A DNA stretch of 46,041 bases from a virus. The DNA lies in IMG/VR virus record IMGVR_UViG_3300042465_004209, positions 1-46,041 of that record. One strand, written 5' to 3'. The translations under genes and the position numbers were made by a program. A model generated the notes under the pieces. The model searched no databases. It was not told the origin of the DNA and saw nothing but the letters and a program-made list of their open reading frames with translations. Positions 5,694-44,354 of the stretch are shown in pieces (the first letter of the stretch is position 1; each line of letters opens with the position of its first letter).

Positions 5694-8036
5694 TTATCTG
5701 TTTAGTTTTCTTGGTGTGTAATGAAGCACAACACCAGATAAGTTATGTCCTAAATCAATAGCCGTATTGGAGAAAACGACTAGACCGATGTTTGTTCCGC
5801 TTCCCTGTATGCGAATTTCTGGTTGAGATACAATCTTTCCGTCGTAGTAAAATGTATTCCAAGTGGCTTCATCCCAATATCCACCAGCGCCTTGCACTTC
5901 TTGGTAATTCATCAAATGCGTTGCAACACTTGGATCGGCATAAGAGAAATCGGGATTGAATCTAATTTCAGAATAACCTACTGACGATAACTCAACTTCA
6001 AGTTTTCTAAATCGCTTAATTGCTGAAGGTGATTTTACATTATTAAACGCTGTTCTGATATAGGCTTGAATAGGCTCACCGTCAAAAGATGATCCAGTAT
6101 TAGCAACGTAAACATAACCATCCTCGTCACCAAGTAAAACGATATCTCGCCCACTAGCATCTTCCCCACTCCATGCGTAACTAATATTTACAGGATAGGT
6201 AAATTCAGAGAACTCATGCCCCATTGTCGTAGCGCCTGTTTGCGTTACACCAGAGGTCATTGTCATAATAATACCTGTGCCATCATTTGCATAAAAACGA
6301 ACTTGATTCTTATTCTTATACGCAGCGGTAGCCACAATCTTTTCTCTAAATCTATCAATAACCGGCTGAATAGCGCGACTAATCGTATCGTGTTCAAATC
6401 CACCAAATACATAAGAAGGGACGATGCGTACAATTCCTTTATCATCAAACGAATAGAGTGAACCAAGATTCATCAAACCATAATGAATAGCGCCAATATC
6501 GGGAGAGATTAATTCAGCTCTGTATAAACTAGTTTGCGTATCTACAGATACTTGCCAAAAACTATCTCGACAAGCGACGGCAAGAACGCCACCAACAATC
6601 GCGCTCATTCCTGTAATCGTATCGCCAAACTCTTGAACATCTTGGAAACCAAGACTTGTCGTTCTAAAGTCATGGGGATTACCTACAGCAGAAAATACAA
6701 CTGTGCCAAAGTAAGATAAGGCTAATTGACCGTTAATCGCTGCAATAGTAGTTGGTGCGTCAATAGTAATTTGTGTTCTGATTGGAATATACACATCCCC
6801 ATCAAACTCAAATGCACGATTCAGCGAATCACATCCGTAGAGGTTCTTCTTATCCGCATCAGCTTGAAAGTTATGTTGAACAAACTGGTAGTTACCACCT
6901 TGCAGAATGCTAATTTGTGTAACAGGATTACCACTAGGATTGTCTACAATCGCAATATCGATAATACCCACTCGGATAGTGTCAGCTACATTACTTGTCC
7001 ATGTGCCGGTAACACTTGTGACAATAAATCGACCTGTATCACTTCTCAAATTAATAGGATCAGAATGAAGCGCCCAAGAACTGTATGTACCAGAGCCAAC
7101 TTTATTCGTAATATTGATAACAATCTGATTTGTACTATACGAAGTAACCGTACCATCCATGTAGTTAGTGGGTGAAGAAATTGAAGTAACTAAAATTGCT
7201 TGCCCTACTATATAGGATTTACCTGTTTGTGTAGTAAAGGTATGAGCGCCTAATCCCATCGTAATAGTAGAGTCACTGGTCGCTTCTAAATCATCAAGAT
7301 TCTGAGATGTTTCAATAACTTGGCGTTTAACAGTTGCTGTTGCGCCCGAATTCTTTTGGTTAATAACAACACCATCAAGTACATCAACAGTACAGGTTTT
7401 AAAAGGTAGCGATTTAAACAAAGTGATTTGTTGCCATCCGGTAGAAGTAGACTTCCAAATATCAACTGCTGTACCTGCCGCGTTATCCCGAAAAGCATAA
7501 GCAACACCTTTGTACATACAAACACCGCGCAATACACCGCTACCAGTTACAGCATGGATATCAGCACGATAATCATCCGCTACTAAGCCAAGCGCATTAG
7601 CATGACCGATACCTGTCGGATGCCCATCTTTAGATGGGAGAATAGTCAAAGCGCCTTTTAACACACCACTGACGTTAAAGTTTTCAAGTACAAATGTACC
7701 CGTTACTCTATCGATAATCAGATAGTTTGATTCAACCTGCAATACTTTACCTGTAGCCGCGCTTGTAGCGCCTGTAATTGTTTGCCCTACTGTGACAGCG
7801 CCTACAAACGTGCAAGGGCAATAGTAGTAACTCTGAGCGCTAGGAGAAGGTCTACCATCAAATCTTTCATAACCATCAATGCGACGATAACCCCCGAGAG
7901 CATTGCACTCATAGTTATTGATTGAAATACATTTACCGGCATCAATAGTGAGAGGGGGCGATACCAAATCAAGTCCACCTGCAAAACGTGAGTATTGCGT
8001 CTGGGTTTTAACATTAGGTAGCGCGTTCATTCTCAT
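5694..8036 (-). CDS. tail nozzle-like large structural protein
   Basis: 780 residues from the ATG at 8036, which overlaps the adaptor stop as ATGA and has GGAAGA upstream. A longer reading from 8069 lacks support. The N-terminal segment (QYSRFAGGLDLVSPPLTIDAGKC, then INNYECNALGGYRRIDGYERFDG, quoted in two parts) is the hallmark opening I associate with podovirus nozzle or tail-stabilising proteins that follow the adaptor gene. The rest is beta-rich with many short strands and VTG/GTG turns, consistent with a beta-propeller-like tail tube protein. It should form the distal tube of the short tail, between the adaptor ring and the fibre or needle. No enzymatic motif is seen. Assignment rests on gene order and the N-terminal pattern. 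Confidence 0.6.
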   Translation of the reverse strand: MRMNALPNVKTQTQYSRFAGGLDLVSPPLTIDAGKCISINNYECNALGGYRRIDGYERFDGRPSPSAQSYYYCPCTFVGAVTVGQTITGATSAATGKVLQVESNYLIIDRVTGTFVLENFNVSGVLKGALTILPSKDGHPTGIGHANALGLVADDYRADIHAVTGSGVLRGVCMYKGVAYAFRDNAAGTAVDIWKSTSTGWQQITLFKSLPFKTCTVDVLDGVVINQKNSGATATVKRQVIETSQNLDDLEATSDSTITMGLGAHTFTTQTGKSYIVGQAILVTSISSPTNYMDGTVTSYSTNQIVINITNKVGSGTYSSWALHSDPINLRSDTGRFIVTSVTGTWTSNVADTIRVGIIDIAIVDNPSGNPVTQISILQGGNYQFVQHNFQADADKKNLYGCDSLNRAFEFDGDVYIPIRTQITIDAPTTIAAINGQLALSYFGTVVFSAVGNPHDFRTTSLGFQDVQEFGDTITGMSAIVGGVLAVACRDSFWQVSVDTQTSLYRAELISPDIGAIHYGLMNLGSLYSFDDKGIVRIVPSYVFGGFEHDTISRAIQPVIDRFREKIVATAAYKNKNQVRFYANDGTGIIMTMTSGVTQTGATTMGHEFSEFTYPVNISYAWSGEDASGRDIVLLGDEDGYVYVANTGSSFDGEPIQAYIRTAFNNVKSPSAIKRFRKLEVELSSVGYSEIRFNPDFSYADPSVATHLMNYQEVQGAGGYWDEATWNTFYYDGKIVSQPEIRIQGSGTNIGLVVFSNTAIDLGHNLSGVVLHYTPRKLNR

Positions 8037-17202: not shown

Positions 17203-20200
17203 CTATCGACGATTATACTGGTAATTGTATTCTATCAATAACTCTTTCTCGTCGTTTTCAAGTTCTTTTAGAAGTTGTTTATCACCTTCAATTCGCGCTT
17301 CATCTTGTTTTTTACGCAAATCTTTTACATCTTTGATAATAGACTTTGTTTCATCGTAGAAATCAAGTAACGATTGATTGCGAGTTACAAATTTATCAAT
17401 TGCCGCGTCATCCGCTAATTTCTCATACTTTTTAAACTTGTCGTTAATATCTTCAGCTTCTTTACGTTGCGTTGTATAAACCCGACGGTAGGCATCGATA
17501 GTGTCTTCTTTAACAAAATTGGATACTAATGGGAGTTTACCAACACTCATTTCTTCCGCATTCATTGATGAAGTATAAAGCGAATTTACAAATTTGTAAG
17601 CCTGTGTACCTACCGAACCTGTTAAAGCATTTAATGTGTATTTCATAGATTCGGGCGATATATCAATTAAACCAGATTCAACTTTTGTTCCGCCTGTCAC
17701 TTTGTTCATCCATTTAGCGAAGTCTGAAAATATCGTACCTCTTGTTGTAGACCATTCTTTTTCACTATCTGGAATAGTGGTATCGTAAACATCTTCTGGA
17801 TAGATAGGTTTACCCCATTGATTTCTATTGTAATTTATAGAAAACGGTATTCTTCCCGCAGTAGGAATCAAACCGCTTATCAAATCTTTAGCGTTCCATT
17901 CACCCGACACCATTGGGTTTACATACGAGAAGTTATTAAAGAAAGACGACATGAGTTTGTTAGTGATTTTTTCTGGATCACCACCTAATTGAATTCTAGC
18001 AATGGCTGTACCTACATCTTTCCAGAAAGACAAGCCATAAGGTAGTTTCCAATCTACGCGCAGACCTGTTTTTTCATCTAACGTCACGCTAAGGAATCTG
18101 GTTTTTTCTTCCTCTGGAATCAAATCATCATCCCCATCATCACCGCCAAGTAGCGCTATCAAATAACCTAACGTCACATAAGTAGAAAGCATCGCTGCCG
18201 CTTGCACTTTATGCTCACCGCGAATAGTTGCATCAACTAGGTTTTCAGTACCTTGAATAGACGCATTTAAGAATAAATACATTGCACCAAGTTCACGACC
18301 AATTACACCGCGACGATTAAAGTTAATGGTTACATTACGCGCAATTTTAGCGGCTTCCTGTGGGGATTTACCGTTATCAAGTGCTACTTTAAACGTAGAC
18401 AATCGAGTTGCCGTTTCACCAACTTCCCCTAAGTATTTCAATAAGTTAGCTAATTTATTTTCTACTACCATCAGTTTTAATTTATCCAATGGATACTCAT
18501 AGAATTTAGTATCTAACATTTTTGATTTCAAAACAGCCAAGTTAAGTTCATCTGCTTTTTGCTCAATACTTGAAATAAATGCCGCGCCAGATTTACCACC
18601 ATTATCATAGTAAAGTCTGATTGCATTATCCCATTCCGCATTACTGGTAGAGCCTTTCGCCATATATTTGGCAATCTGTAGTGATGCCATTGGTGTTTTA
18701 GCAAGAACCGTTGAAGCGTATTTAAAACCTTGGCGAGCCGTGTTGGTGTAAAGCGCAACTGCTGGATCGACCATCGCCCCGTTTGCAATAATGAATGCTG
18801 GATTCAAAATAGTGTAAGAGTGACGTAGGAATCTATTGAATGCCGCCATGACTTTAAACATAGAATAAATGTTTTCGTCACCAAGTCTATTGAACGCTTG
18901 AACAAACGCTTCATCATTAACAACAATGCGAACTTGTTTACCGTTTCGCCAATAAGATATTTCCTCATTTTGGTCATAAGGTTTTCTCATCAAAGTGACT
19001 TGTGGTTCACCACCGACTTTAACAATTTCATATTCGCGTTTTTCTTGTCCTGTTCTTGCTGTTTCAGCTTCAACATAGCGACGTGCATCTCGGAGCGTAT
19101 CACGAACACCAATTTCACTACCGTGGAAATACATAACGTATTGCGCTTTTGCTTTACCCATAATAGGTTTCATTGGCGTTACTTCGTTTTCCCATAAGTT
19201 AATATCGGGATTATCCTCAACTAATTTATATAATGTGGATTGCACATACATTTTAGAAGATCGGATAACAGCACGTTCCAAATTCATAACAATGTTTTCG
19301 ACAATTTGATTTGCGCGAGATTGTCTACCGAGCATTTTTCTATCAAATTTACCCGATATCGAGAAACCTTGCCCAATGTTACCACGGCTAGATTTCTTAG
19401 CTTTACCGGTAACTTCATCAACTTCTTCAAAGCCCTTTAATGGTACATGATAATCAAAACCATCTTCCCATGATTCCGCTTGTTCTGGTGAAATATCACC
19501 AGATGACTTTAGGATATTCATAACTATGGTTTGAATGTTTTGCCAATCATCGGTTAATTTTTCAAACTCAGCGTACTTATCACCCATCGTATCTTTATAT
19601 CTTTGGATAATAGCGGCTGATTCAGCATCAGTCATACCGCTACCGCCTTCACCTAATTTACGGAATTTAGGATTGATGGATTGGATATAAGCATTACGCT
19701 CTGGTGCGTGTTTAGCATAAAGAAGTAAACCGATTTCATCTTTGTTTACATTCATTTTTGCCATTCTGTCAATCAGCGGTTGGATGTAGCGCTCTTTGAG
19801 TTTTTCCAATTGGTTAGCTGCAATATTACCTGCCGCTTCCATTGCAAGAACCACGTCATTACTTTCATCAACCTTGCCGCCTTGCTCTCTAACTCTATCC
19901 ATTACCACACGGATTCTTAGCAAATCATCTTGAATCCATTTGCGTAAGAACTGGAAAGATGTTTCGGCAGGAATATTGAAAGTGCCGTCTGGGTTTTGAG
20001 AAGGCATATTTTTACTAGCAAGTAAATTCCCGCTATCTATTTCATCTGTATCAAATGCAGCAAATATTGACCGAATTTTAGTAGGATCGAACATGGCGAT
20101 GTTTTCAACACCGCCTTCTGTCATATATGCGCTGTCATAGCCGGTATAGTTATAAAATGTATTGCCACTCGAATCTCTGTTTGTCAAGTCGTGTTCCATT

Positions 20201-23200
20201 ATTCCCCAATTACCACGCTCAATCTCCCTTGCAAATAAACGTTTTTCTTCTTCTGGGTTTCTTGAATATTCGGGGTTTTCATCAAGAAAATCAGAATACC
20301 AGTCAATAGCCTCTTTTTTCATTTTGTCATTTCGGTAATCAAATGTGTATTTTGTATTTAAAAATACAGGTATCACATAACCATCACGTCCATATCTGCT
20401 GGCAAATTCAGCATTTTTTGTAAATGAAATCGTATTATGACCACCGGTTCGTCTACCTTCGTCACGCATTCCAACAGGGCTAAATTCTTCAAACGGTTGC
20501 TGGTTGTTTGTTCCGTGATACCATTTAGTTTTTGTATCAAAACCCATCTCACGCGCTCTTTCCATTCGCGCTTCAAATGACATATCCAATCCTTTTGCAA
20601 CGGCATTTAACCACTCTTGCGCTTCACCTGCGTTTTTACCTTTGTAACCTACTTTGCTTGCTTTAGTAATAAGGCTATTAGCGTCACGCTTATTTACTCC
20701 TAACATCTCTGGTGCTTTGCGCAATGTCGCATTGGCAATGTAAAGTAAGTCTTGGTCGCTGAGTTTATTTGCCCATTGAATGAAACCCAATCTTTGCGCA
20801 GCAGGGAACATCTTTGACATATTGCGAAGTGCATTTTTGAGCCATGCTTTGAATTGCTGAACAACTTTTAATTTAGGAACGTATTTTACAAGATAAGCCA
20901 ATGTTTCTTCACGCAAATCTTCCTGCGGTGTATCAGCATCAAGCGCATCCTGTCTACCTTTTAACGCAGCAGGGTTTTTAACTTTAACCAAGTTATCAGT
21001 TGCTTTTAAAAACTTTTCAAATTCAGTTTTATTTTCACCCATATTAAGCATATGAACACTGACTTCGTGCATCATCAGATAATGTAAGTCTTTATCTTTG
21101 CTAATATTTTCTGAAACAAAGTACGTTTTACCCTCAGCAGGATTAAAGAAGGCTTCAATGTCGCCATTTTTGCTGTAACTAACTTCAGCCGCTTCTTCAA
21201 CAATCGCCTGTGCATCAGCATCAGAGATGAATTCAAACATACCTGTTGCAAGCAATCTATCAGTCCAACCTTTACCGTAAGCGTCATCACCGGCTTGTGT
21301 TAAGCCTTCTTTTAATGATTGCTCAGTATGGTTATCGACAGTGGGTTCTTGCGCTTGGCTAAACAACAGCTCGCTGAAATTAAGCAGAGCATCACTGCGG
21401 CTTTGTGAATCATTTTCAGTGTAACGCTTAATCTTGGTGATACCATTGGCGTTTAAGATTTTGACTGCTTCGTCATATTCTTTGCCTTTAGGAACTAATG
21501 CGCCTGCAAACTCATTTAATTTTACAGCTCGTCCAATTTTCGCTTCAAAATAATGCGCGGGCATATTTTTGAGTTTATCTAAAAAGTCATATACCTTTGT
21601 CATTGTTTCAGCAGGAACGTCTTGATAAGACTCTTTAAATGCGCGCGTTCCTTTTGATACTAAATCACTTAGCGCATCTGTTGCACTTGGATTCGAGTAA
21701 TCAGAATAAGGTCGCAATTCTTCTGAAAGACTTTCAAACTCATTGCTCAATTCTTCTTTTAACGCTTCAAGTTTTTCCGCACTAACAATGTCACCTCGCG
21801 CTGCTTGAATCGCTTTGACTGTTTTAAATTGCTTTGCGGTATAGGCTCGAATTGTCCCAATACCGTAACTGACATTTTCACCGCCTTTAACCGTTTTAGT
21901 CATTAGCTTAACGACAGTATCAAGGTTATGCGGTAAGTAAATACGATTACCTGCGTTAGTGTATCCGTTAAAAATACGCTCATCGGTAATTAGATTACTG
22001 TAATTTTCAACTAACCATTTTTCATATTGCGCTTGATTTGTTTTTTCACGAATCAATTTCGAAGTCGCGTAATCATCAATGGATTTTGGTTTACCTTTTT
22101 GATTTCGAAATTCCTCAATAGCGTATTGATAATCAAATGCTAAATTAGATGCTTGTTGACTTTCAACTTCAAGGTAAGGTCTATTTTGATTTAGAGTTTC
22201 ATTTCGCTTTCTAACTGATTCATTGTAAGTATCCACGACAGCTTGGACAAACGCAGGGTCTTTAGACAATTCCATTGAAGGGGTATTTGATGTAACAAAC
22301 TTCTTCATGTTAGCAGGGGGGAGTTTGTTCACCTTATATTGCAGCTTAGGTGCTTTGCCAATTGATTTTAAAAATTCATATTTTAAAGTTACGTTATCAG
22401 CTAAACCTTGTACTAAACCTCTATCTTCAATACTTGAAGCATTGATTGTTCCGCGATACCCGATTGCTTTCGCTAAGGCTTTTGCATCATCCGATAAGGC
22501 TTCGTTTGCATTAGAAACTGCTTTAGAATCAACAATATAGGTAACGCTAGGGTAACGTGGAGAATACACATCCGCGTTATAAAAGCGATTGGCTTTATCC
22601 GCTTCTGGGGTAAACTGTGACGTATCCCCAATCAGAGTGATTTCACCAAAGCCGCTAAGTGGATATTTCTGATTAACTACTGCGATACTTGGCGCAGGTA
22701 ATCCGCCCATCTTGTCAGCATGAACTAAGTTTTTAACACTTAGATTATGGACAATAGCAAGCGGGTTATCGTCTAATACTTTTTTAGCCGCTTTGCTAAA
22801 ACGAACATCATCACTTCGTTTATTAAATCGTTTTGATAAAGGTATTACGTTTGCGTCATCATCGTAAGTAACCGCGTCAATTAACTTACGGTTATTTTTT
22901 GTGTTAGCGTATCCATATTCTTTACCGTCATCAAATCCTAATTCGTGAATTGAATTACCATCAGTAAATATGTTTCCAACAGTGGTTACAATTTCCATTA
23001 CGCGATAACCATTAGGTAACCATCGTTTACCGTGTTCTTCAGCGTAAGCGCGAGTAGTTGATACCCAATCACCATTTCTAGGCATTGATTCTTTGACATC
23101 GTTTGGCACGGCACGATAAACCATAATAGCTGCGTTTGGTTTTTTACCGCGCATACGTTGTAATTTAGCTATAGCTTCACTATCACTAGGTTGACCATCA

Positions 23201-26200
23201 CCATAATAGTTTACTGCCGATGATGAATAAATATCTTCTGGATATATGCTAGTCAAATCGTTGATAGGGTAATCATTTCGATTAGGCGCTTCGTGTGACA
23301 TTTGATAGTCACTCATACCATACCCTGCATTTTCAGCAGCAAGGTTCACCATTTCTTGCGCAGTTTCCATATCACCTGCTTCAACCGCAGCTAAATATTT
23401 GGCATCGTCCGATTTGCTTACTTTGGCTTTGCTAAAGCGAATGTCGTTTGATTCCTTACTAAATTTACCTGTGTTATCTGTAGCGGATTTGATTTGGTTA
23501 TTGTGTAATGGGACGAACGCAAATAACGCATTAGACTTTGCTATTTTTGGAGTGTCGCCCTCATCCACTATCATCCCATCATAACTCACCCCTTCAACTC
23601 TTTCAAAGTGTCGTAATGCAGAATATAGTTTATCTGCCCAAATAAATGACAAAGGTTCAGAAGATTTAAGTCTAGTCAAACCTTCTGACAATCTAGGGTA
23701 TTTATTTGAAAAATACGGTATAAATTTAGTATTATAAAAATCGTTATCTTTTTTATTTTGAGAATCAAATGGGTTTCTAATATTTAAAAATAACGCCATT
23801 GGCTTTTTGCCGTTGGAGTACACTTTTGCGTATTTTGGGTCTTGTGTAAAGAAATTCCCTTTATATTCGTTAAACTCCCAAAACTTTTCGCTAGTCCCAT
23901 GATAAACAACCAGTGGTTCACCATTCTCATCAACAACCTTACTTGCATTTTCTGGATCATTCTCCCAGTCACCGAACCACTCTTTAAACTCTGGCGTTCT
24001 TACCTGTTCGTATTGCGTCGCATTGAGATTTGATACCTTACCATTAGGCGCTAGGCGTTCTTGCGCTTTGGCTTTGCTGAATTTGATATTAGAATCATCT
24101 TCACTATACAATTCATTATACAAATCAGTAAGATAGGCTTTCGCTTTATCTGGATTTTCTTTTGAATACTCATTAAATTTAGAAATTAATATCCCTTTGT
24201 TTGATGCAGGGAGATAAAGGAATTCATCAGAACCGAATACCAATTCGTTAATAGTAGCAACTTCATCTTCGGTTAAATTGCGTTCTAATTTTGGAATTTT
24301 AGCAATAGGTTCTTTTATTTTCGGTGCAAACAAGTCGCCAGATGTTGTCATACCCGTACCTTTCATCTCATCGACAACAGTATCTACCTCTTGATCACCT
24401 TTGCGTTTCTTTTCCGCTTTAAAGTCTTTCATTAACTGATCTTTTTCAGCTTGCGTTTTAGCATCTAAGATTGCGTTAAGTTCTTCATTTGTATAGGTAT
24501 TTAGAAGTTCGTCTTGCTCTTGTTGGTCTTGGTCAGCTTTGTCAGCCGCCATTTTATCAATGGCGTTATCAATCCCTTGAGATGTATAGACTTTTTTCCC
24601 TGTTCCAAAATCAGCATCCAGTGATTCTCTAAGTTTAGCAATTAAATCGTTTTCCCCATCAACGTCATAACCTTTATCAGCTAATTGTAACGCCATTCCG
24701 TCAAAACCTTCGGAACTTGTTTTAGTAAAATACCAACCTTTGAAATTAGAAAAACCTGCTCTATTTGCCATTTCACGATTGATACCGCCAAGTTTACCGA
24801 TAGCAGTTTCAATAGGTTCTAAACCGGTTATTGCTCTTAGGTTATTGGTAGCGGGTTTCTTTTTAGCAACAGGTTGCATAGTGGGTTGGTCTTCTTCAAC
24901 TCCGCTAATTTGGTCTTGACTGATACTACCAGTCATTTGCTCACCTGCATTTACACCTTGTTGTTTTACACCCATGTACCTTTTACGAGGAGCGTTTCCT
25001 ACTTCTCCCATATCAACAGGCTCTTTAGCAATTGGCGCAGGACGATTATTTAAATAGTATTCACGTTGAACCGTGTTAAGTACAAACTTTTTGCCTTTGG
25101 AATCAAACAGTATTCCATTTTTGTAAGTTGCACCATTCCGTAACCATTCATCAACTTTACGCAAAGCATCGGATTCTTGTCTAACTGGCGTAGACGGTTC
25201 GACAAAATTTGTAATAACATCTTGTCCTTGTTGACCTTCAGTTACTTGTTCCCCTGCGTTTACACCTTGTCTAACAAGTCGTGTGCGTTTTGAAGAAACA
25301 GGTTGTTGCACACCAATATCTACAGGCGCATTTGCAATTTCCGGTTTACGTCTTCCATAAGAGGATCGTAAAAGTTCATACGCATTAATATCATCTTCGC
25401 TTAACTCCGTATCTTTAAAGCCTTGACGTTTTAATTCGGCTTTAATAGCTGGCTCGATATTGGAAGCAGATACATTTTTATCAAATACAGTTTGAATAGC
25501 CGCATTACGATTGTTTCGCGTTCTTATCCATTGTTGTTCTTCAATTCGTTGATTTACTGAAGAAAGATTGCGAGTTTCTCTATTATTTGCAATACGTTCT
25601 TTAATTTGGGTGTCTAAAACTTCTTTTAATGCGCTAGTCTTAAAAGAAGGCGCGCCTGTAATAGTGTCTTGCCCTTGTCGAGTTTCGTTATAACCTTGTT
25701 CAGTTAATGCAACAGGTGTTTTGCTAATAGCTGATGGTTTAGTAGTTAAGTAATATTCACGTTGCGCTTTGTTTAATAAGAACTTTTTACCTTTGGTATC
25801 AATGAGCATTCCGTTTTTGTAAATAGCACCGTTTCTTGCCCATTCATTTACTTTTGCAAACGTAGCAGGTATTTGCTCTGAAATTACAGGCTCTGCTTTT
25901 TCCTTAATCAATCCTTCTACATTCATTTCATTTTCTGTAGGAGGTATCATTTCTGGAGCTTGTACAACAGGCGTTGTTGGCGATGCTTTTAAAAGTCTGT
26001 AGGCATCAATATCATCTTGATTGATTTCAGTATCTTTAAAACCTTGGCGTTTCAGTTCTGCTTTAATTGCAGGAAAGATATTTTCAGCAGGTATATCCCG
26101 ATCAAACACCATTTGAATAACGGAGTTACGATTGTTTCGAGTTTTAGACCATTGTTCATTTTCAATGGTTCGGTTAATAGAAGGAATGCTTGATTCAACT

Positions 26201-27873
26201 CTCGCGGTTCTTTGTTGCTCTAATATTTGCGCAAGTTGTTGATTTTTATCGTTAATTTCTTGAGAAATTAAATCATCGACTTCTTCTTGTTTAGATTGCT
26301 CATATCCTTTTTGAAATTTACGATAAGCCAGTTCATCCCTAACAGTTGATAGCTGTTGTTCTAATTGAACCGCGTCTTGATAATCCTTATCGGTTATTTC
26401 AACTTCTTTTTTCTTAGTGAATCTATCTGCAATTTTATTCGCATACTCCATATTGATTTCACTACCAATTGAATTGGCTTCTACAATATCGGTAAATGCT
26501 TTGATGGCATCATCCGCAGTTGTAGTTTTACCAATTTCTTCATCAATCTTTTGATTATCAACGATAGGTGCTTCGCTATCAACTACAGGCTCATTAGTAT
26601 CTGGCACATTGCCTTTACGAGTTAAATTTTCATCCCTAAAGATGTTTTCGTATTCCTGTAAAGTGCTAGTGGTTTGATCGCTTGTAGGTGTTGATTGTGC
26701 TGTTGTAGTATCACTTGTTGGTAATCCACCTTGTAGCATTGATTCTGCAATCGGTGTACCTTCGGGTTGAGGTTTGTCTTGGCGCTGTATATTTTTAGCC
26801 GCCATATCTGCAAGGCTATATCCACCTCCCATTAAGCCACCGGTGACTAAGCCAATAGCCGCTGCGTTAGATACACCTTCTAAAATATCCGGCTTATCTA
26901 AAGCAATGTTTTGAAGTATTTGCTCTTGCGCTGATTGTGGCAATTCTTCAAGTACACCTTCAGTAAACACACCGCCTAATGCTTGTTTGAGAACTGACTT
27001 ATTAGCAACGTCTACCGAGCCTGTGCCGTTTGATAAGGTATCAAAATCAGCAATACCTAATTTCTTAGCGACTACACCGCCTACACCGGCTAAGAACGCA
27101 TCGCCTGCACCTGCTGCGACTGCTAACGCTGATTGTTTACCTGTCAATAAACCTGTTTCAGTTTCTTGACGTGTTGCTTCGGCTTGTTGCCCTGCGCCTA
27201 CTACTAATTCACCTGCGGCAGGTGCTACAAATGAGGATGCTCTACCTAAACCACCAAGTGCTTTTACTGCTCCGCCAATTCGCCCGCCAACATACGATGC
27301 AGGTAATGATTCAAGCGCTGTATTAACCGTTGCAGATGGATTAGTAACGGCTGATTTTAACGTATCTGTAAATGTATCTTGTGACTGTATTTCTTTTTGA
27401 GCGGCTTGTTCTTCGGGAGATTGTTGAGCAGTCAGATAATCTTTAGCCGCTTTATAATCAATACCTTTTTCTTCTAGGTATTTACCGGCTTCACCGCTAC
27501 TGGCAATATCGGCAATACCTGTAATGAATTCGGGAACACCTATTAAGCCTTTCGATAATGCTAATGATTGGTCATAAGCACGTTTACGGACAGGCTCAAC
27601 AACATAGTCCATAAGAACATTGGCAGTTTCCTTAGCAGACTGATAGGCTTTATCAGTAAATGATATATCCCCCTGCTCTGCTACAGGTTGCTCTGGCGTT
27701 TGTGCTACGGGATTTTCTACAGGCTCATTTACTTTTGCAGGTTCTTGCGCATTAGATAATGAAGGTAGATATTCATTATTAAAATAATCACTGACTTCTT
27801 GCTCTGTTGCATCGTCAGTTGCTTCGATATTGTAAATTGAACCATCGTCAGTGGTTATTTTATATTTAGCCAT
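17203..27873 (-). CDS. giant polyvalent protein with ADP-ribosyltransferase-like and protease-like domains (probably ejected with the DNA)
   Basis: 3556 residues, almost a quarter of the window. N-terminus: KYKITTDDGSIYNIEATDDA, then a Gly/Ala-rich hydrophobic stretch (~180-360) that could insert in membranes. Residues ~570-955 hold a two-copy duplication. ~1010-1090 is a GGINREMANRAGF module known from polyvalent proteins. ~1280-1475 is an ADP-ribosyltransferase-like domain (EFKEWFGDWEN, then VVYHGTS). ~1500-1680 is a second such domain (MVYRAVP, DWVSTTRAYAEEHG). ~1715-1790 is the HADKMGGLPAPSIAVV module. ~2255-2290 has the zinc-protease-like MHEVSVHML (HExxxH). ~2445-2515 is a third ADP-ribosyltransferase-like fold (WYHGTNN, SFTKNAEFASRYG). 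~2630-3400 matches the large-polyvalent-protein C-terminal domain (LPD38 type; SYTILNPAFIIANG). Such proteins enter the host early and disarm it. No RNA polymerase motif was found. The module positions are estimates. Confidence 0.8.
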   Translation of the reverse strand: MAKYKITTDDGSIYNIEATDDATEQEVSDYFNNEYLPSLSNAQEPAKVNEPVENPVAQTPEQPVAEQGDISFTDKAYQSAKETANVLMDYVVEPVRKRAYDQSLALSKGLIGVPEFITGIADIASSGEAGKYLEEKGIDYKAAKDYLTAQQSPEEQAAQKEIQSQDTFTDTLKSAVTNPSATVNTALESLPASYVGGRIGGAVKALGGLGRASSFVAPAAGELVVGAGQQAEATRQETETGLLTGKQSALAVAAGAGDAFLAGVGGVVAKKLGIADFDTLSNGTGSVDVANKSVLKQALGGVFTEGVLEELPQSAQEQILQNIALDKPDILEGVSNAAAIGLVTGGLMGGGYSLADMAAKNIQRQDKPQPEGTPIAESMLQGGLPTSDTTTAQSTPTSDQTTSTLQEYENIFRDENLTRKGNVPDTNEPVVDSEAPIVDNQKIDEEIGKTTTADDAIKAFTDIVEANSIGSEINMEYANKIADRFTKKKEVEITDKDYQDAVQLEQQLSTVRDELAYRKFQKGYEQSKQEEVDDLISQEINDKNQQLAQILEQQRTARVESSIPSINRTIENEQWSKTRNNRNSVIQMVFDRDIPAENIFPAIKAELKRQGFKDTEINQDDIDAYRLLKASPTTPVVQAPEMIPPTENEMNVEGLIKEKAEPVISEQIPATFAKVNEWARNGAIYKNGMLIDTKGKKFLLNKAQREYYLTTKPSAISKTPVALTEQGYNETRQGQDTITGAPSFKTSALKEVLDTQIKERIANNRETRNLSSVNQRIEEQQWIRTRNNRNAAIQTVFDKNVSASNIEPAIKAELKRQGFKDTELSEDDINAYELLRSSYGRRKPEIANAPVDIGVQQPVSSKRTRLVRQGVNAGEQVTEGQQGQDVITNFVEPSTPVRQESDALRKVDEWLRNGATYKNGILFDSKGKKFVLNTVQREYYLNNRPAPIAKEPVDMGEVGNAPRKRYMGVKQQGVNAGEQMTGSISQDQISGVEEDQPTMQPVAKKKPATNNLRAITGLEPIETAIGKLGGINREMANRAGFSNFKGWYFTKTSSEGFDGMALQLADKGYDVDGENDLIAKLRESLDADFGTGKKVYTSQGIDNAIDKMAADKADQDQQEQDELLNTYTNEELNAILDAKTQAEKDQLMKDFKAEKKRKGDQEVDTVVDEMKGTGMTTSGDLFAPKIKEPIAKIPKLERNLTEDEVATINELVFGSDEFLYLPASNKGILISKFNEYSKENPDKAKAYLTDLYNELYSEDDSNIKFSKAKAQERLAPNGKVSNLNATQYEQVRTPEFKEWFGDWENDPENASKVVDENGEPLVVYHGTSEKFWEFNEYKGNFFTQDPKYAKVYSNGKKPMALFLNIRNPFDSQNKKDNDFYNTKFIPYFSNKYPRLSEGLTRLKSSEPLSFIWADKLYSALRHFERVEGVSYDGMIVDEGDTPKIAKSNALFAFVPLHNNQIKSATDNTGKFSKESNDIRFSKAKVSKSDDAKYLAAVEAGDMETAQEMVNLAAENAGYGMSDYQMSHEAPNRNDYPINDLTSIYPEDIYSSSAVNYYGDGQPSDSEAIAKLQRMRGKKPNAAIMVYRAVPNDVKESMPRNGDWVSTTRAYAEEHGKRWLPNGYRVMEIVTTVGNIFTDGNSIHELGFDDGKEYGYANTKNNRKLIDAVTYDDDANVIPLSKRFNKRSDDVRFSKAAKKVLDDNPLAIVHNLSVKNLVHADKMGGLPAPSIAVVNQKYPLSGFGEITLIGDTSQFTPEADKANRFYNADVYSPRYPSVTYIVDSKAVSNANEALSDDAKALAKAIGYRGTINASSIEDRGLVQGLADNVTLKYEFLKSIGKAPKLQYKVNKLPPANMKKFVTSNTPSMELSKDPAFVQAVVDTYNESVRKRNETLNQNRPYLEVESQQASNLAFDYQYAIEEFRNQKGKPKSIDDYATSKLIREKTNQAQYEKWLVENYSNLITDERIFNGYTNAGNRIYLPHNLDTVVKLMTKTVKGGENVSYGIGTIRAYTAKQFKTVKAIQAARGDIVSAEKLEALKEELSNEFESLSEELRPYSDYSNPSATDALSDLVSKGTRAFKESYQDVPAETMTKVYDFLDKLKNMPAHYFEAKIGRAVKLNEFAGALVPKGKEYDEAVKILNANGITKIKRYTENDSQSRSDALLNFSELLFSQAQEPTVDNHTEQSLKEGLTQAGDDAYGKGWTDRLLATGMFEFISDADAQAIVEEAAEVSYSKNGDIEAFFNPAEGKTYFVSENISKDKDLHYLMMHEVSVHMLNMGENKTEFEKFLKATDNLVKVKNPAALKGRQDALDADTPQEDLREETLAYLVKYVPKLKVVQQFKAWLKNALRNMSKMFPAAQRLGFIQWANKLSDQDLLYIANATLRKAPEMLGVNKRDANSLITKASKVGYKGKNAGEAQEWLNAVAKGLDMSFEARMERAREMGFDTKTKWYHGTNNQQPFEEFSPVGMRDEGRRTGGHNTISFTKNAEFASRYGRDGYVIPVFLNTKYTFDYRNDKMKKEAIDWYSDFLDENPEYSRNPEEEKRLFAREIERGNWGIMEHDLTNRDSSGNTFYNYTGYDSAYMTEGGVENIAMFDPTKIRSIFAAFDTDEIDSGNLLASKNMPSQNPDGTFNIPAETSFQFLRKWIQDDLLRIRVVMDRVREQGGKVDESNDVVLAMEAAGNIAANQLEKLKERYIQPLIDRMAKMNVNKDEIGLLLYAKHAPERNAYIQSINPKFRKLGEGGSGMTDAESAAIIQRYKDTMGDKYAEFEKLTDDWQNIQTIVMNILKSSGDISPEQAESWEDGFDYHVPLKGFEEVDEVTGKAKKSSRGNIGQGFSISGKFDRKMLGRQSRANQIVENIVMNLERAVIRSSKMYVQSTLYKLVEDNPDINLWENEVTPMKPIMGKAKAQYVMYFHGSEIGVRDTLRDARRYVEAETARTGQEKREYEIVKVGGEPQVTLMRKPYDQNEEISYWRNGKQVRIVVNDEAFVQAFNRLGDENIYSMFKVMAAFNRFLRHSYTILNPAFIIANGAMVDPAVALYTNTARQGFKYASTVLAKTPMASLQIAKYMAKGSTSNAEWDNAIRLYYDNGGKSGAAFISSIEQKADELNLAVLKSKMLDTKFYEYPLDKLKLMVVENKLANLLKYLGEVGETATRLSTFKVALDNGKSPQEAAKIARNVTINFNRRGVIGRELGAMYLFLNASIQGTENLVDATIRGEHKVQAAAMLSTYVTLGYLIALLGGDDGDDDLIPEEEKTRFLSVTLDEKTGLRVDWKLPYGLSFWKDVGTAIARIQLGGDPEKITNKLMSSFFNNFSYVNPMVSGEWNAKDLISGLIPTAGRIPFSINYNRNQWGKPIYPEDVYDTTIPDSEKEWSTTRGTIFSDFAKWMNKVTGGTKVESGLIDISPESMKYTLNALTGSVGTQAYKFVNSLYTSSMNAEEMSVGKLPLVSNFVKEDTIDAYRRVYTTQRKEAEDINDKFKKYEKLADDAAIDKFVTRNQSLLDFYDETKSIIKDVKDLRKKQDEARIEGDKQLLKELENDEKELLIEYNYQYNRR

Positions 27874-40310: not shown

Positions 40311-40393
40311 AACTCAACTTAGCTCTCCGGTTGAGTTGTTACCGAGGATGGGAAATCACTTTAATAATGGCGATTTATCAATAACCCATCCTC
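40311..40393 (+). promoter_or_regulatory. 5' leader of the DUF2815 gene: operator-like dyad and a long-range hairpin
   Basis: AACTCAAC (40311-40318) and GTTGAGTT (40330-40337) form a dyad right after the -10, placed to block transcription. GAGGATGGG (40344-40352) and CCCATCCTC (40385-40393) are exact complements. The rest, to 40438, holds no other structure I can support. Confidence 0.5.
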
Positions 40394-40438: not shown

Positions 40439-40963
40439 ATGTCAGATACACAAATTAAATTAGGTGAAGTTCGTTTGTCTTTTCCATCTTTGTTTCGCAA
40501 AGCAGTTTTCGACAATGTTGAAACTAAATACGAAGCAACTGTGTTAATGCCTAAAGACAGCAAACAACACAAAACGGTACAAGCCGCAATTGATAAATTC
40601 ATTGCGCAAACATTCAAAGACGGTGCGCCTAAAGGCTTAAAAATCACCTGTTTTATTGACGGTGATGACAAAGAATATGATGGTTACGCTGGTATGATGG
40701 CGCTTAAAGGATCATCAAACAAACGTATCCCTGTATTCGATAAAGACCGCGCTCCAATTACCGAAGATGACGATAAAGTCTACGCTGGATGTTATGTTAA
40801 TGCTATTTTTGACTTCTGGTACTCAAGTCATCCAAAAGGTGGCAAACAAATATTAAGCAATCTTCTTGGTGTTCAGTTCAAGAGAGATGGCGAAGCGTTC
40901 TCTGATGCTAAAGTCGCAAATGCTGATGCGTTTGATGACGAGTCGGATGAAGACGATTTTTAA
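40439..40963 (+). CDS. DUF2815 ssDNA-binding-like protein
   Basis: 174 residues, the family's usual size. It starts SDTQIKLGEVRLSFPSLFRK, then VLMPKDSKQHKTVQAAIDKF. It ends in an acidic tail (DAFDDESDEDDF), as single-strand-binding proteins (T7 gp2.5, SSB) do to recruit partners. Its place between the DUF2800 nuclease and the polymerase supports binding of replication and recombination intermediates. It has its own promoter and a 154-base leader, so it is probably made at high levels. Confidence 0.8.
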   Translation: MSDTQIKLGEVRLSFPSLFRKAVFDNVETKYEATVLMPKDSKQHKTVQAAIDKFIAQTFKDGAPKGLKITCFIDGDDKEYDGYAGMMALKGSSNKRIPVFDKDRAPITEDDDKVYAGCYVNAIFDFWYSSHPKGGKQILSNLLGVQFKRDGEAFSDAKVANADAFDDESDEDDF

Positions 40964-40988
40964 ATACTCTGTGTCCTCAGTGTAAAAG

Positions 40989-41731
40989 ACGGTTGGTTTA
41001 ATACCGTAAAAATTAAATGACAGCTTGGAAAGACAAGCACTATCAATAATTACTATTGTCGTCTAAATGGCGTAGGGCAACTTGCTAACAAGCCGGTAAA
41101 TCTAGGTTCGACTCCTAGCAGTAGTAATTATTGATAGTACGCGCACAGCGCACCGGTAATGGCACGACGCTCAGAAATAGGAAACTTGGGATCGCTTGAA
41201 AGTACAGCGACGAATACTGAGATTACTATCATGATAGTTATATTTGCCGATATAACTATTTGCAGCACGGCTCTTTTGTTAAATGTAAATGTCCTAGTAT
41301 CCTCATAATTGGCGTTATGAGGATACGCTATCAATAAAAGCATTGCTCGTTCTCACCGCAAATGAGAACCTTGTGACCCTTAATGTAGAGTAATACGGTA
41401 TAGCTACCCGTACTATGGGGTAAGAATTAGTGGTGACGCTAATTTGTCACTACGATAGGGCAGAATCGAAACTGAATCGTAGGATATAGTAAACAGTGCT
41501 TTTATTGATAGTGTGGAAACTATCAATCGGTTAGTTGCATTTCCGAGTTACTCCACGACGTACATAGCTGCACACTGTGTACGTCACCTAACTTTATAAG
41601 TTAAGCGTCCTTTTGGATTTTTAAAAGTAAGTTTGCGGGTGTCCTCATAGACCCAAAAAAGGTATGAGTCAGTCAGTTTTCATTTAATACTCCAATATTA
41701 ATTGTGTAATTAAGCAAACTTACTTTTAAAA
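40989..41731 (+). ncRNA. large structured RNA, candidate GOLLD-like giant phage RNA
   Basis: No gene fits 40964-41814. The stretch is a chain of stems: GCTTG/CAAGC (41023-41038). Helix A of 20 bp (41039-41058 with 41119-41138) encloses a tRNA-like module. TCGCT/AGCGA is at 41192-41210. A perfect 10-bp hairpin is at 41234-41259 and a perfect 12-bp hairpin with loop TTGGCG at 41297-41326. Helix B of 18 bp (41328-41345 with 41494-41511) encloses GTTCTCA/TGAGAAC (41349-41369) and more stems. GACGTACA/TGTACGTC is at 41557-41585 and TAACTT-TAT-AAGTTA at 41589-41603. Helix C is a perfect 18 bp (41619-41636 with 41714-41731). A terminator follows. The size, phage location and embedded tRNA are features I recall for GOLLD RNAs. 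The family name is an inference; the structured nature is directly visible. Confidence 0.7.
41052..41126 (+). tRNA. tRNA-like module inside the large RNA (probably not a working tRNA)
   Basis: 75 bases. The acceptor ACTATTG/CAGTAGT pairs fully (one G-U). The T arm is perfect: CTAGG-TTCGACT-CCTAG (41102-41118). The D arm has A14, A15, G18, G19 and A21 at the canonical places. In the canonical anticodon position the loop would read CTAACAA (anticodon AAC), but its stem (ACTTG with GCCGG) does not pair. The acceptor helix continues 13 bp outward into helix A, and CCA is not encoded. Confidence 0.5.
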
Positions 41732-41755
41732 CCTCAAGCTCCACCTAAAGACCTC

Positions 41756-41791
41756 ACCGACAATTTGTTACTCCAGATTGTCGGTTTTTTT
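41756..41791 (+). terminator. intrinsic terminator after the large RNA
   Basis: ACCGACAAT (41756-41764) pairs with ATTGTCGGT (41777-41785), a perfect 9-bp stem followed by seven T. It ends 23 bases before the polymerase start. Confidence 0.9.
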
Positions 41792-41814
41792 ATATTCACA
41801 AATAGGATCCCCCT

Positions 41815-42933
41815 ATGAATACTTACATTATTGACACCGAGTGTTACAAAAACTATTGGCTATTTTTAGCCGTCAACCACAAGACCGGATCATCTCTTGA
41901 AATAGAGTTATTTGGTGAAGATGCAAAACTCTCCGAGGAACAAGCTAAAAAGATTGAGCGTCTACTTCTAAATCACGAAACTATATCGTTCAATGGCTTG
42001 AACTACGATATCCCCATGATATGCGCTGCGATGGATGTCTGGGATTGCAGTAAACTCCACAAACTCTCCACTAAAATTATCACTTCACAGAAAGTCACTT
42101 GGCAGATACTGCGTGAACATAAACTCAACGTGCCTGCTTACAAGTATCACATTGATATTATTGAACTTCCTATTGGTCAAGCATCACTCAAAATCTACGG
42201 TGGGCGAATTCATACTAAGAAAATGCAAGACTTGCCAATCGATCCTAACGCGCTGATACAGGATAATGAGCGTAGCCTTATGCGCAAGTATTGTAGAAAC
42301 GATACGCAAGTAACAGGTGAGCTATTTGATGCGCTGAGAGGACAGATAGACTTGCGCAAAGAGATGACAACGCAGTACGGCATCAACCTCAATTCAAAAT
42401 CCGATGCGCAGATTGCTGAAGCGATTATCAAGTCAGAGTTGTACGAGCAAACGGGTGAGCATTATCGCCCTAAGCAGTACGATGCGAACTACACGTTCAG
42501 CTATCGTAATCCAGAAATTATCCAGTTCAAAACACAGGCGCTTTGCGATATCTTTGACCAGCTACTTTACGAAACCTTCACGCTAAAAGATAACGGCAGT
42601 GTTGAACTACCTCAATGGCTAGTTGAGCCTATTAGTATTGGTAAAGGCTCTTATCAAATGGGTATTGGCGGATTGCATTCGCGCGAAAATGCGCAACATA
42701 TCGAAGCAGCAGGTGACTTTTACTTATCTGACTTTGACGTGGCGAGTTATTATCCAAGTATTATCCTGCATCAAAGGTTATTCCCCGAATCTATGGGTCA
42801 ACCTTTCTTAGATTTATATCAAGAAATTGTAAAGAAAAGATTGCTTGCTAAAAAGAAAGCGCAAGAGATACAATGTCGAATTGATTATTTGGAAAGGATT
42901 TTAAAAGATGAGTTATCCAAAACGACCTTATAG
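41815..42933 (+). CDS. DNA polymerase family B, N-terminal part (exonuclease and motif A), split by an HNH insertion
   Basis: 372 residues. The 3'-5' exonuclease has D7-T-E9 (motif I), NYD at ~63-65 (motif II) and YCRNDTQVT (~159-167, motif III). The polymerase motif A is DFDVASYYPSIIL with catalytic Asp308, a family B signature. The frame leaves the polymerase after LK at 363-364 and ends DELSKTTL as it reads into the HNH gene. Motifs B and C are encoded at 43584-44354. It could still act as a two-chain enzyme, as in other phage genes divided by homing endonucleases. GGA before the ATG is a weak ribosome site. It should replicate the genome together with the primase-helicase and the DUF2815 protein. 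Confidence 0.85.
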   Translation: MNTYIIDTECYKNYWLFLAVNHKTGSSLEIELFGEDAKLSEEQAKKIERLLLNHETISFNGLNYDIPMICAAMDVWDCSKLHKLSTKIITSQKVTWQILREHKLNVPAYKYHIDIIELPIGQASLKIYGGRIHTKKMQDLPIDPNALIQDNERSLMRKYCRNDTQVTGELFDALRGQIDLRKEMTTQYGINLNSKSDAQIAEAIIKSELYEQTGEHYRPKQYDANYTFSYRNPEIIQFKTQALCDIFDQLLYETFTLKDNGSVELPQWLVEPISIGKGSYQMGIGGLHSRENAQHIEAAGDFYLSDFDVASYYPSIILHQRLFPESMGQPFLDLYQEIVKKRLLAKKKAQEIQCRIDYLERILKDELSKTTL

Positions 42934-43594
42934 TAAACGCGGTGAACGACAAAATTGTATTGAGCATCCTCTTTATATGACTTGGCATAATATGCTAAGA
43001 AGGTGCTATGCTTCCAAATATCCGGCTTTTAAAAATTACGGTGAAAGAGGAATAAAAGTTGATGAAACTTGGTGGTATTTTAAAAATTTTTTAAAAGATA
43101 TGGGTGATAAACCTACTCCTTACCATACATTAGAACGAATAGATAATGAGTTAGGTTATTCAAAATACAATTGTAAATGGGCGACTCGAACCGAACAATG
43201 TGTTAATCGTAGAAAATTTAAAAACAATACCACTGGTGAAACGGGTGTATGCGAAGTAAATTACGGTTACCATGCTAGATTTGATTATGAAGGCACTCGA
43301 TATGATATAGGTAGATTTACCACATTTGAAAAGGCAGTTGAAGCTAGACGCGCGTTTGTAAAAATGTTTCATGTTGATAAAGAACGAGCAATTCAATCCA
43401 TATCAGCAGAAACAGTTTGGAATAATTCCAAATCAAAAATACGCGGAGTAACTCCTCACAAAGACGGAGGTTACATGGTTAGAGTGACGATAAAAGGTCA
43501 ACGATATTACGTTGGTTATTATAAAGATTTAGAGGACGCTACCGATGCACGACATAGATTCATTGAAGAAAGAAATAGAGTTATTAAAAGCTGA
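42908..43594 (+). CDS. HNH homing endonuclease with two AP2 domains, inserted in the polymerase gene
   Basis: 228 residues. HNH core HTLERIDNELGYSKYNCKWA followed by TEQCVNRR (H73, N88, N100). It is followed by two AP2-like DNA-binding modules, GVCEVNYGYHARFDYEGTRY (~113-150) and GVTPHKDGGYMVRVTIKGQR (~180-222). This type cuts intron-less or empty alleles so that repair copies the gene in. It occupies exactly the interval between two TTAAAAG repeats (42901-42907; 43584-43590) that lie in the same codon phase of the polymerase. Its ends overlap both polymerase pieces. No intron-like sequence surrounds it. Confidence 0.88.
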   Translation: MSYPKRPYSKRGERQNCIEHPLYMTWHNMLRRCYASKYPAFKNYGERGIKVDETWWYFKNFLKDMGDKPTPYHTLERIDNELGYSKYNCKWATRTEQCVNRRKFKNNTTGETGVCEVNYGYHARFDYEGTRYDIGRFTTFEKAVEARRAFVKMFHVDKERAIQSISAETVWNNSKSKIRGVTPHKDGGYMVRVTIKGQRYYVGYYKDLEDATDARHRFIEERNRVIKS

Positions 43595-44354
43595 AAAAAA
43601 GAAATTTATTGTAGAAGCTGACGGTAAAAAAATTCAGCTCAACGGATCGTTTGGCAAATTTGGTAGCAAATACAGTAGCTTATACTCACCGCAACTGCTC
43701 CTGCAAACCACAATTACTGGTCAATTGTCATTGTTGATGTTAATCGAAGAACTTGAACTCAATGGGATACAAGTAGTTAGCGCAAACACTGACGGCATTG
43801 TGACGTATTATCACGAAAGCCAAATACCCAAGCTCCAAGACATTCTATTCGACTGGGAAATCACCACAAGCTACAACCTTGAGCAAACAGATTACCGTGA
43901 ACTCGCCTCACGCGATGTGAATAACTACATTGCCGTGAAACTGGATGGTAAAGCCAAATGCAAAGGCTGTTTTGGTGAAGCGTCACTGAGTAAAAACCCA
44001 GATGGCTTGATTATCTATGAAGCGGTTGCGCAATTCATTGCTAACGGCACACCGATTGAAAAGACGGTCACTGATTGTGATGACATTAGAAAGTTTGTCA
44101 CAGTCCGCAGAGTAACCGGTGGCGCATTGTTTCAAGGTGATTATCTTGGTAAAGCAGTTCGCTTTTATCATAGCTGTAATTTAGGGCTTGCTGACGCATC
44201 GCTTGTTTATGCGAAGAACGGTAACAAAGTCCCCATGTCACAGGGATGTCGTCCGCTAATGGATTTGCCAAATAGCTTTCCCGATGATGTCGATTTTTAT
44301 TATTACTACACCAAGGCAAAAGAAGTGTTAGCAGGCGTTGGCTATAAAGAATAG
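43545..44354 (+). CDS. DNA polymerase family B, C-terminal part (motifs B and C)
   Basis: 269 residues from the ATG at 43545, which lies inside the HNH gene. The true polymerase sequence resumes at LK-AEKKKFIVEADGKK (~residue 14). Motif B is KKIQLNGSFGKFG (28-40) and motif C is SANTDGIV (NTDG, 81-84) with Asp83 kept; the usual first Asp is Asn. The rest matches the palm and thumb of this subfamily (ASRDVNNYIAVKLDGKAKCKG; FVTVRRVTGGALFQGDYLGK). Joined at the TTAAAAG repeats the two parts give a ~618-residue polymerase. It ends at a hairpin that overlaps its stop. Confidence 0.8.
   Translation: MHDIDSLKKEIELLKAEKKKFIVEADGKKIQLNGSFGKFGSKYSSLYSPQLLLQTTITGQLSLLMLIEELELNGIQVVSANTDGIVTYYHESQIPKLQDILFDWEITTSYNLEQTDYRELASRDVNNYIAVKLDGKAKCKGCFGEASLSKNPDGLIIYEAVAQFIANGTPIEKTVTDCDDIRKFVTVRRVTGGALFQGDYLGKAVRFYHSCNLGLADASLVYAKNGNKVPMSQGCRPLMDLPNSFPDDVDFYYYYTKAKEVLAGVGYKE

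Follow-up and report, generated by a model that had tools for sequence, protein, structure and literature searches.

The DNA analysed here (the window) is a 46,041-nucleotide viral stretch, IMG/VR record IMGVR_UViG_3300042465_004209, and our subject is the 851-nt interval at positions 40964-41814, which lies between the gp2.5-like SSB gene (40439-40963; phrog_112) and the DNA polymerase gene (41815-42933 as called; phrog_1252), both on the + strand. The interval contains no conserved ORF, and the only ORF of more than 60 amino acids within it is a 71-amino-acid frame on the opposite strand. Its minimum folding energy is -262.3 kcal/mol, compared with -201 ± 7 kcal/mol for 20 dinucleotide shuffles, none of which folded as low (z = -8.6). 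Long inverted repeats are present at 41039-41058/41119-41138 (20 nt, 95% identity), 41325-41345/41494-41514 (21 nt, 90% identity) and 41619-41636/41714-41731 (18 nt, 100% identity), and there is a perfect 12-bp hairpin at 41297-41326. The sequence TATCAATAA occurs seven times in the whole window, where 1.2 copies are expected, and four of the seven are in the interval. An earlier note on this DNA had described a gene-free, strongly folding interval with long helices, a perfect hairpin, a tRNA-shaped module, a strong terminator and an arm element common to several helices, and each of these was located. The second of its two 18-bp helices, however, is really about 21 nt with mismatches; and it was right that the RNA is built of domains, but these form a chain of separate domains and not one nested fold.

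Several other features of this phage were observed in passing. The DNA polymerase gene is interrupted (41815-44354): the intact L012 polymerase aligns with it through residues 1-339 on one side and 352-598 on the other side of about 780 bases, in which an HNH endonuclease ORF (42908-43594) overlaps both halves in other frames and which has no Rfam intron match. A single 3556-amino-acid ORF occupies 17203-27873 on the minus strand. Upstream of the SSB gene, at 40369-40385, is the sequence GGCGATTTATCAATAAC, which could pair with the arm sequence TTATTGATAG, its complement; in other phages it recurs in the loops of hairpins next to the RNA.

All parts of the RNA described below are on the + strand. 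The 5' leader (CTCTGTGTCCTCAGTGT..., 40964-41017) is found in all SSB-polymerase alleles listed, and is followed by the M3 hairpin TGACAGCTTGGAAAGACAAGCA (41018-41039), a motif present in 88 IMG/VR stretches, in which the loop GAAAGA is constant and the stem covaries (GCTTG/CAAGC, GCCG/CGGC, GATG/CATC and GATTG/CAATC). Next is arm A (41039-41138), a 20-bp helix that closes a tRNA-like module and is replaced by other arms in relatives. The final bases of arm A, GATAGT, double as the 5' strand of helix P1 of the adjoining core, so arm A and the core would compete for one strand; this sharing is clear in the window, in L007, L130, L138 and phage P1, and is ambiguous where the arms are bulged. The tRNA-like plug-in domain within arm A (41051-41127) matches RF00005 at 31.9 bits (the cut-off is 29) and is reported by ARAGORN as tRNA-???. 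Its T arm is intact, it has no anticodon arm that ARAGORN could assign, and its acceptor stem runs into the 20-bp helix, leaving neither a free acceptor end nor a free CCA end; the module is a degenerate transfer RNA. Downstream of the core are linker hairpins (41231-41326, with the perfect hairpin mentioned above) that differ among relatives, the M2 domain (41328-41511), an optional-module hairpin GACGTACATAGCTGCACACTGTGTACGTC (41557-41585) that is also present in L014 and absent from the other SSB-polymerase alleles listed, an 18-bp arm bearing a pseudoknot (41619-41731), and an intrinsic terminator (41756-41791), a 12-pair hairpin at 41756-41785 followed by a T run, that is kept in all complete SSB-polymerase alleles.

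The conserved core (type 1; about 100 nt, 41133-41230) consists of helices P1 (GATAGT/ACTATC), P2 (41141-41151), P3 (41154-41166) and P4 (41170-41221), the last with a hairpin at 41192-41210 whose loop is TGAAAGTAC. A calibrated model of it, R1, gives a single match in the whole window, of 99 bits over 41140-41222. That the core is a structured RNA is clear from its covariation as follows: among 25 diverse cores 92.1% of cells are paired, compared with 69% in shuffles and 24-48% when the partners are slid by 1-3 columns; in 14 of the 17 pairs both sides have changed and still pair; there are 92 double-changed cells where shuffles give 23.6; and the covariation score of 0.605 was reached by none of 500 shuffles. 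One pair in the 41192-41210 hairpin is G-C, C-G, A-U or U-A depending on the phage. Near-invariant segments lie between the helices (GUAAUGGC, AAUaGGArACUUGGGA, UGArAGUA and AAUA), an unpaired stretch of 17 nt, AAAUAGGARACUUGGGA, is nearly invariant, and 35 core positions are invariant across unrelated phages, which suggests that the core has a conserved partner, although the high conservation of the unpaired segments could equally reflect RNA-RNA assembly, catalysis or base pairing.

How far does this core extend beyond the window? In a BLASTn search with the interval, 67 unannotated bases matched in Salmonella phage vB_SalM_SA002 (288 kb) and shorter stretches matched in two Erwinia jumbo phages, each lying within a long helix and near tRNA genes. 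The common motif CTTGGGA..TGARAGTAC..AATA occurs in 116 IMG/VR stretches (113 when the upstream GTAATGGC is demanded as well), and the core set after coding chance matches were dropped comprises 116 copies with 53 distinct sequences; about ten pattern matches (L031, L045, L058, L064, L071, L080, L086 and L092 among them) were excluded, as their surroundings are coding-like and lack the rest of the core. The core is thus present in more than 110 IMG/VR contigs and in the jumbo phages of Salmonella and Erwinia. A scan of GTDB genomes added one real match, a Methylomonas MAG contig (L154); a Calothrix match from that scan (L153) is a chance match in apparent coding sequence. Of 17 genomes or records tested, 12 have a match, in each case with one strong copy. 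The flanking genes are variously SSB/polymerase, portal/GroES, terminase small subunit/PhoH, primase/HNH, terminase large subunit, tail chaperone or a repressor region, and the orientation of the element is mostly that of the large flanking genes.

The M2 domain, about 170 nt and closed by CTATCAATAAAAGCATTG / CAGTGCTTTTATTGATAG, covaries independently. Among its 14 homologues 98.6% of cells are paired and 21 of 46 pairs are double-changed; the consensus structure was built from the same alignment and so favors itself, but slid controls still drop to 31-49%. G-U pairs occupy 78 of 642 M2 cells, which favors RNA over DNA. The pseudoknot in the 18-bp arm is of the H type, [GGGUG]UC[CUCAUA][GACCC]AAAAAAGG[UAUGAG] (41637-41668), and both of its stems covary: over 12 variants 93.9% of cells are paired, 6 of 11 pairs are double-changed, and none of 500 shuffles reached its score. 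The pseudoknots of ToxI-type type III antitoxins are likewise short and H-type with an A-rich loop, but the window pseudoknot has no Rfam match and is a single copy within a larger RNA.

The SSB-polymerase interval has a counterpart in about 20 related phages, where it is 710-1578 nt long when complete and carries differing modules. Its constant parts are the leader, M3, M2 and the terminator, and its variable parts are arm A (tRNA-like or other hairpins), the type-1 or type-2 core or another domain B, and the 3' hairpins. In L095 a pseudoknot arm occupies the position that the tRNA-like module has in the window, and in L053 a short hairpin substitutes for the pseudoknot arm. L095 also has a tandem pair of scaffolds (see below) at 7620-8000, which differ in domain B. 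In two Vibrio relatives the gap between the SSB and polymerase genes is only 38 and 78 bases, and the RNA is absent.

Relatives with type-2 cores have a four-way scaffold in which helix P1 encloses P2, domain B (the core's P3/P4) and P5, and the loops of P2 (GCUGA) and P5 (UCAGC) are complementary, making these kissing loops. The loops covary (GCUGA/UCAGC, GUUGA/UCAAU, GCCAG/UUGGC and CUGG/UCAG). The scaffold minus domain B has 23 pairs including the kissing ones, with 97.6% of cells paired and 15 double-changed pairs, a result matched by none of 500 shuffles; double changes are found in three of the five kissing pairs. The P1/P2/P5 architecture is present in the core-sharing relatives L007, L017, L028 and L157. 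The window's type-1 core is missing both P5 and the P2 loop, that is, both kissing partners, and the jumbo-phage lineage (L001, L002, L101 and L160) shows no P2-P5 kissing. A scan needing only P1, P2 and P5 recovered scaffolds from type-2-core loci amid chance matches. The covariation among homologues to which the earlier note had looked is therefore strong (core, M2, pseudoknot and scaffold), and the interval is a structured RNA; of the observations that the note thought would tell against it, a conserved ORF is not present, and covariation that includes G-U pairs speaks against mere inverted DNA.

The scaffold also extends to cultured phages. BLASTn with L157 matched 270 cultured-phage records (E up to 1) and with L169 193 records (E up to 0.001); these matches are partial, and the scaffold is confirmed in only a subset of the records. 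It was verified in phage P1, BUCT554, BASEL phage Bas77, SopranoGao and Magnus; visual inspection also showed it in IME207 and in a Klebsiella prophage, where it follows four tRNA genes. In phage P1, Bas77 and Klebsiella phages the scaffold has other domains in the core's place and is often beside tRNA genes; model searches of the cultured-phage and prophage scaffold loci found no copy of the window core. The phage P1 RNAs (L167 1500-2200, NC_005856 69.5-70.2 kb) are unannotated tandem scaffolds downstream of tRNA-Asn and tRNA-Thr, and they overlap plp, an ORF annotated on the opposite strand. In Bas77 the scaffold region lies at about 22.3-22.8 kb. Separately, the tRNA array of phAPEC8 has an arm-like RNA between tRNA-Thr and tRNA-Gly (L172 985-1310) in which the scan found no scaffold. 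Sub-threshold matches were noted near the jumbo-phage RNAs to the type III hammerhead (L001 5241-5293, 30.5 bits; L002 5665-5717, 28.4 bits; cut-off 48.5) and beside the jumbo-phage cores to the Y RNA-like YrlA (L001 1933-2050, 32.3 bits; L002 2275-2378, 41.9 bits; cut-off 69).

Is this RNA a member of a class already described? Cmscan of the interval against Rfam 15 at E up to 10 gave neither GOLLD nor ROOL, and its only credible match is the tRNA-like module, which is also the sole match in the window at gathering threshold; no Rfam self-splicing intron or ribozyme matches, and sub-threshold matches to Qrr, snoRNAs, BSnc119 and mir-142 were judged to be chance. Dedicated searches of this genome with the GOLLD (RF02032) and ROOL (RF03087) models found no match, nor did either model match 11 homologous loci at E up to 1. 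These negatives stand without a GOLLD- or ROOL-bearing genome as positive control, and the dedicated ROOL search is weak (0 of 14 control genomes matched), but cmscan agrees with it; we reject both classes as the identity of this RNA. It does resemble GOLLD in being about 800 nt long and phage-encoded, in its tRNA-like module (GOLLD can have a tRNA-holding variable region) and in the nearness to tRNA islands (PMC12286853), but this resemblance is general: sequence and domains are unrelated, and the window RNA swaps modules where GOLLD has one constant 3' domain. ROOL is similarly a large ornate phage RNA near tRNA islands, from which the window RNA differs in having no covariance-model match. 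What holds of the earlier note's reading is that this is a giant, domain-built, structured phage RNA with a tRNA-like module and arm sequences common to its domains. We found no description of the family in the open-licence PubMed Central literature, and we regard it as nearly certain that the window RNA belongs to an unannotated, modular and widespread phage RNA family.

Judged by sequence comparison, the nearest Rfam relative of the family is STnc100 (RF02076). The last phage P1 module aligns to it across the scaffold at 33.4 bits (E 2e-5 for that stretch), which is below the cut-off of 47, and neither the window nor the other homologues tested gave a match. Expression of STnc100, a prophage RNA, has been seen by Northern blot and RNA-seq (PMC5331693), and it and PasD have been described as related prophage sRNAs (PMC13192938). 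These share with the family scaffold the order GGUGAAU, P2 hairpin, variable domain, P5 hairpin and CACC, and a phage or prophage setting; the window RNA differs in that it does not match, its core lacks both P5 and the kissing loop of P2 and has another domain B, and it is much longer and has extra modules. The T4 stable RNA species 1 and 2 (rnaC and rnaD), considered as possible relatives, occupy a similar niche, being small, stable and encoded among the tRNA genes of a phage, and the 3' end of rnaC is a tRNA-like T arm, GGGUUCGAAUCCC; they are, however, only 119-139 nt long, and inspection by eye showed no scaffold or core in them. T4 rnaC itself (L176 409-547) has a fold z of -4.6 and is a tRNA-island RNA of similar style.

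The RNA is structured and modular, exchanges modules at one locus, and is widespread in variable gene contexts, but what might it do? Because other phages carry it beside unrelated genes it probably acts in trans, and its variable neighbours together with one strong copy per genome make a cis-regulatory role unlikely. The interval would be expressed as one RNA of about 800 nt ending at the terminator. In it, small scaffolds of several helices, which loop-loop kissing locks in many relatives, would hold exchangeable domains (tRNA-like arms, the pseudoknot, the invariant P3/P4 core and M2), each folding independently. These modules would most likely be docking or decoy surfaces, each engaging, during infection, an RNA-binding factor of the host (or of the phage). 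Recombination at the repeats within the arms (CTATC/GATAG here and ACAAC/GUUGU in enterobacterial phages) may exchange the modules, so that each phage would display its own module set. As an overall account, a modular, trans-acting, terminator-ended phage RNA with docking or decoy modules appears to us the best available explanation, by a modest balance of probability; the decoy or adaptor mechanism taken by itself is a tentative proposal that falls somewhat short of even, and it should be noted that decoys usually diverge fast and the core does not.

Two other functions deserve serious weight, although we consider each unlikely. The RNA might assemble, without protein, into a cage-like oligomer with the tRNA-like arm as variable interior cargo, as GOLLD and ROOL form cages and GOLLD linkers may hold tRNAs (PMC12286853). 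Its size, phage setting, kissing loops and pseudoknot, and the tRNA-island neighbourhood of relatives, are consistent with this, but it has no sequence or model relation to GOLLD or ROOL, and an architecture that varies between phages, some having a single scaffold of about 120 nt, does not fit easily with a single fixed multimer. Just as improbably, the RNA could be a precursor or member of the base-pairing prophage sRNAs of the STnc100/PasD type, with an unpaired module segment pairing with host mRNAs or sRNAs; the phage P1 alignment to STnc100, the published kinship of STnc100 and PasD, and the 17-nt unpaired core stretch point that way, but the alignment is sub-threshold, neither the window nor the other homologues tested show it, and the RNA is mostly rigid structure with few single-stranded seeds. 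That the RNA acts in cis on the DNA polymerase gene, as its leader or attenuator, is very improbable: the terminator does lie directly upstream of the polymerase ATG at 41815 and the RNA is on the strand of the genes, but homologues precede unrelated genes, and relatives with the same gene pair do without the RNA. Still less probable is a DNA-level element, either recombination sites or mobile inverted repeats with no RNA role, as might be imagined from the CTATC/GATAG repeats common to the arms and the recombination-like changes of place among modules; covariation with retained G-U pairs, the pseudoknot and loop-loop complementarity are signatures of RNA, and the element is mostly co-oriented with the large flanking genes and has a terminator at its end. 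The GOLLD homologue that the earlier note proposed from the size, phage setting and embedded tRNA-like module is scarcely credible, being contradicted by the RF02032 searches at the sensitivities given above.

Large structured RNAs are rare and their function is usually unknown. Since this one is built from exchangeable parts, the natural alleles at one locus reveal which parts are interchangeable, and since the scaffold is present but unannotated in model phages (P1 and BASEL Bas77), deletions in laboratory strains offer an immediate test of what it does. STnc100, an orphan among prophage sRNAs, gains a wider family. We suggest, as a possibility that we hold at rather less than even, a candidate RNA superfamily of tailed phages in which a kissing-loop scaffold would serve as a display platform for recombining domains (tRNA mimics, pseudoknots and the invariant core), and of which the STnc100/PasD sRNAs, the P1 and BASEL RNAs and the giant RNA described here may be separate branches, all within a single system that serves host takeover or counter-defence.
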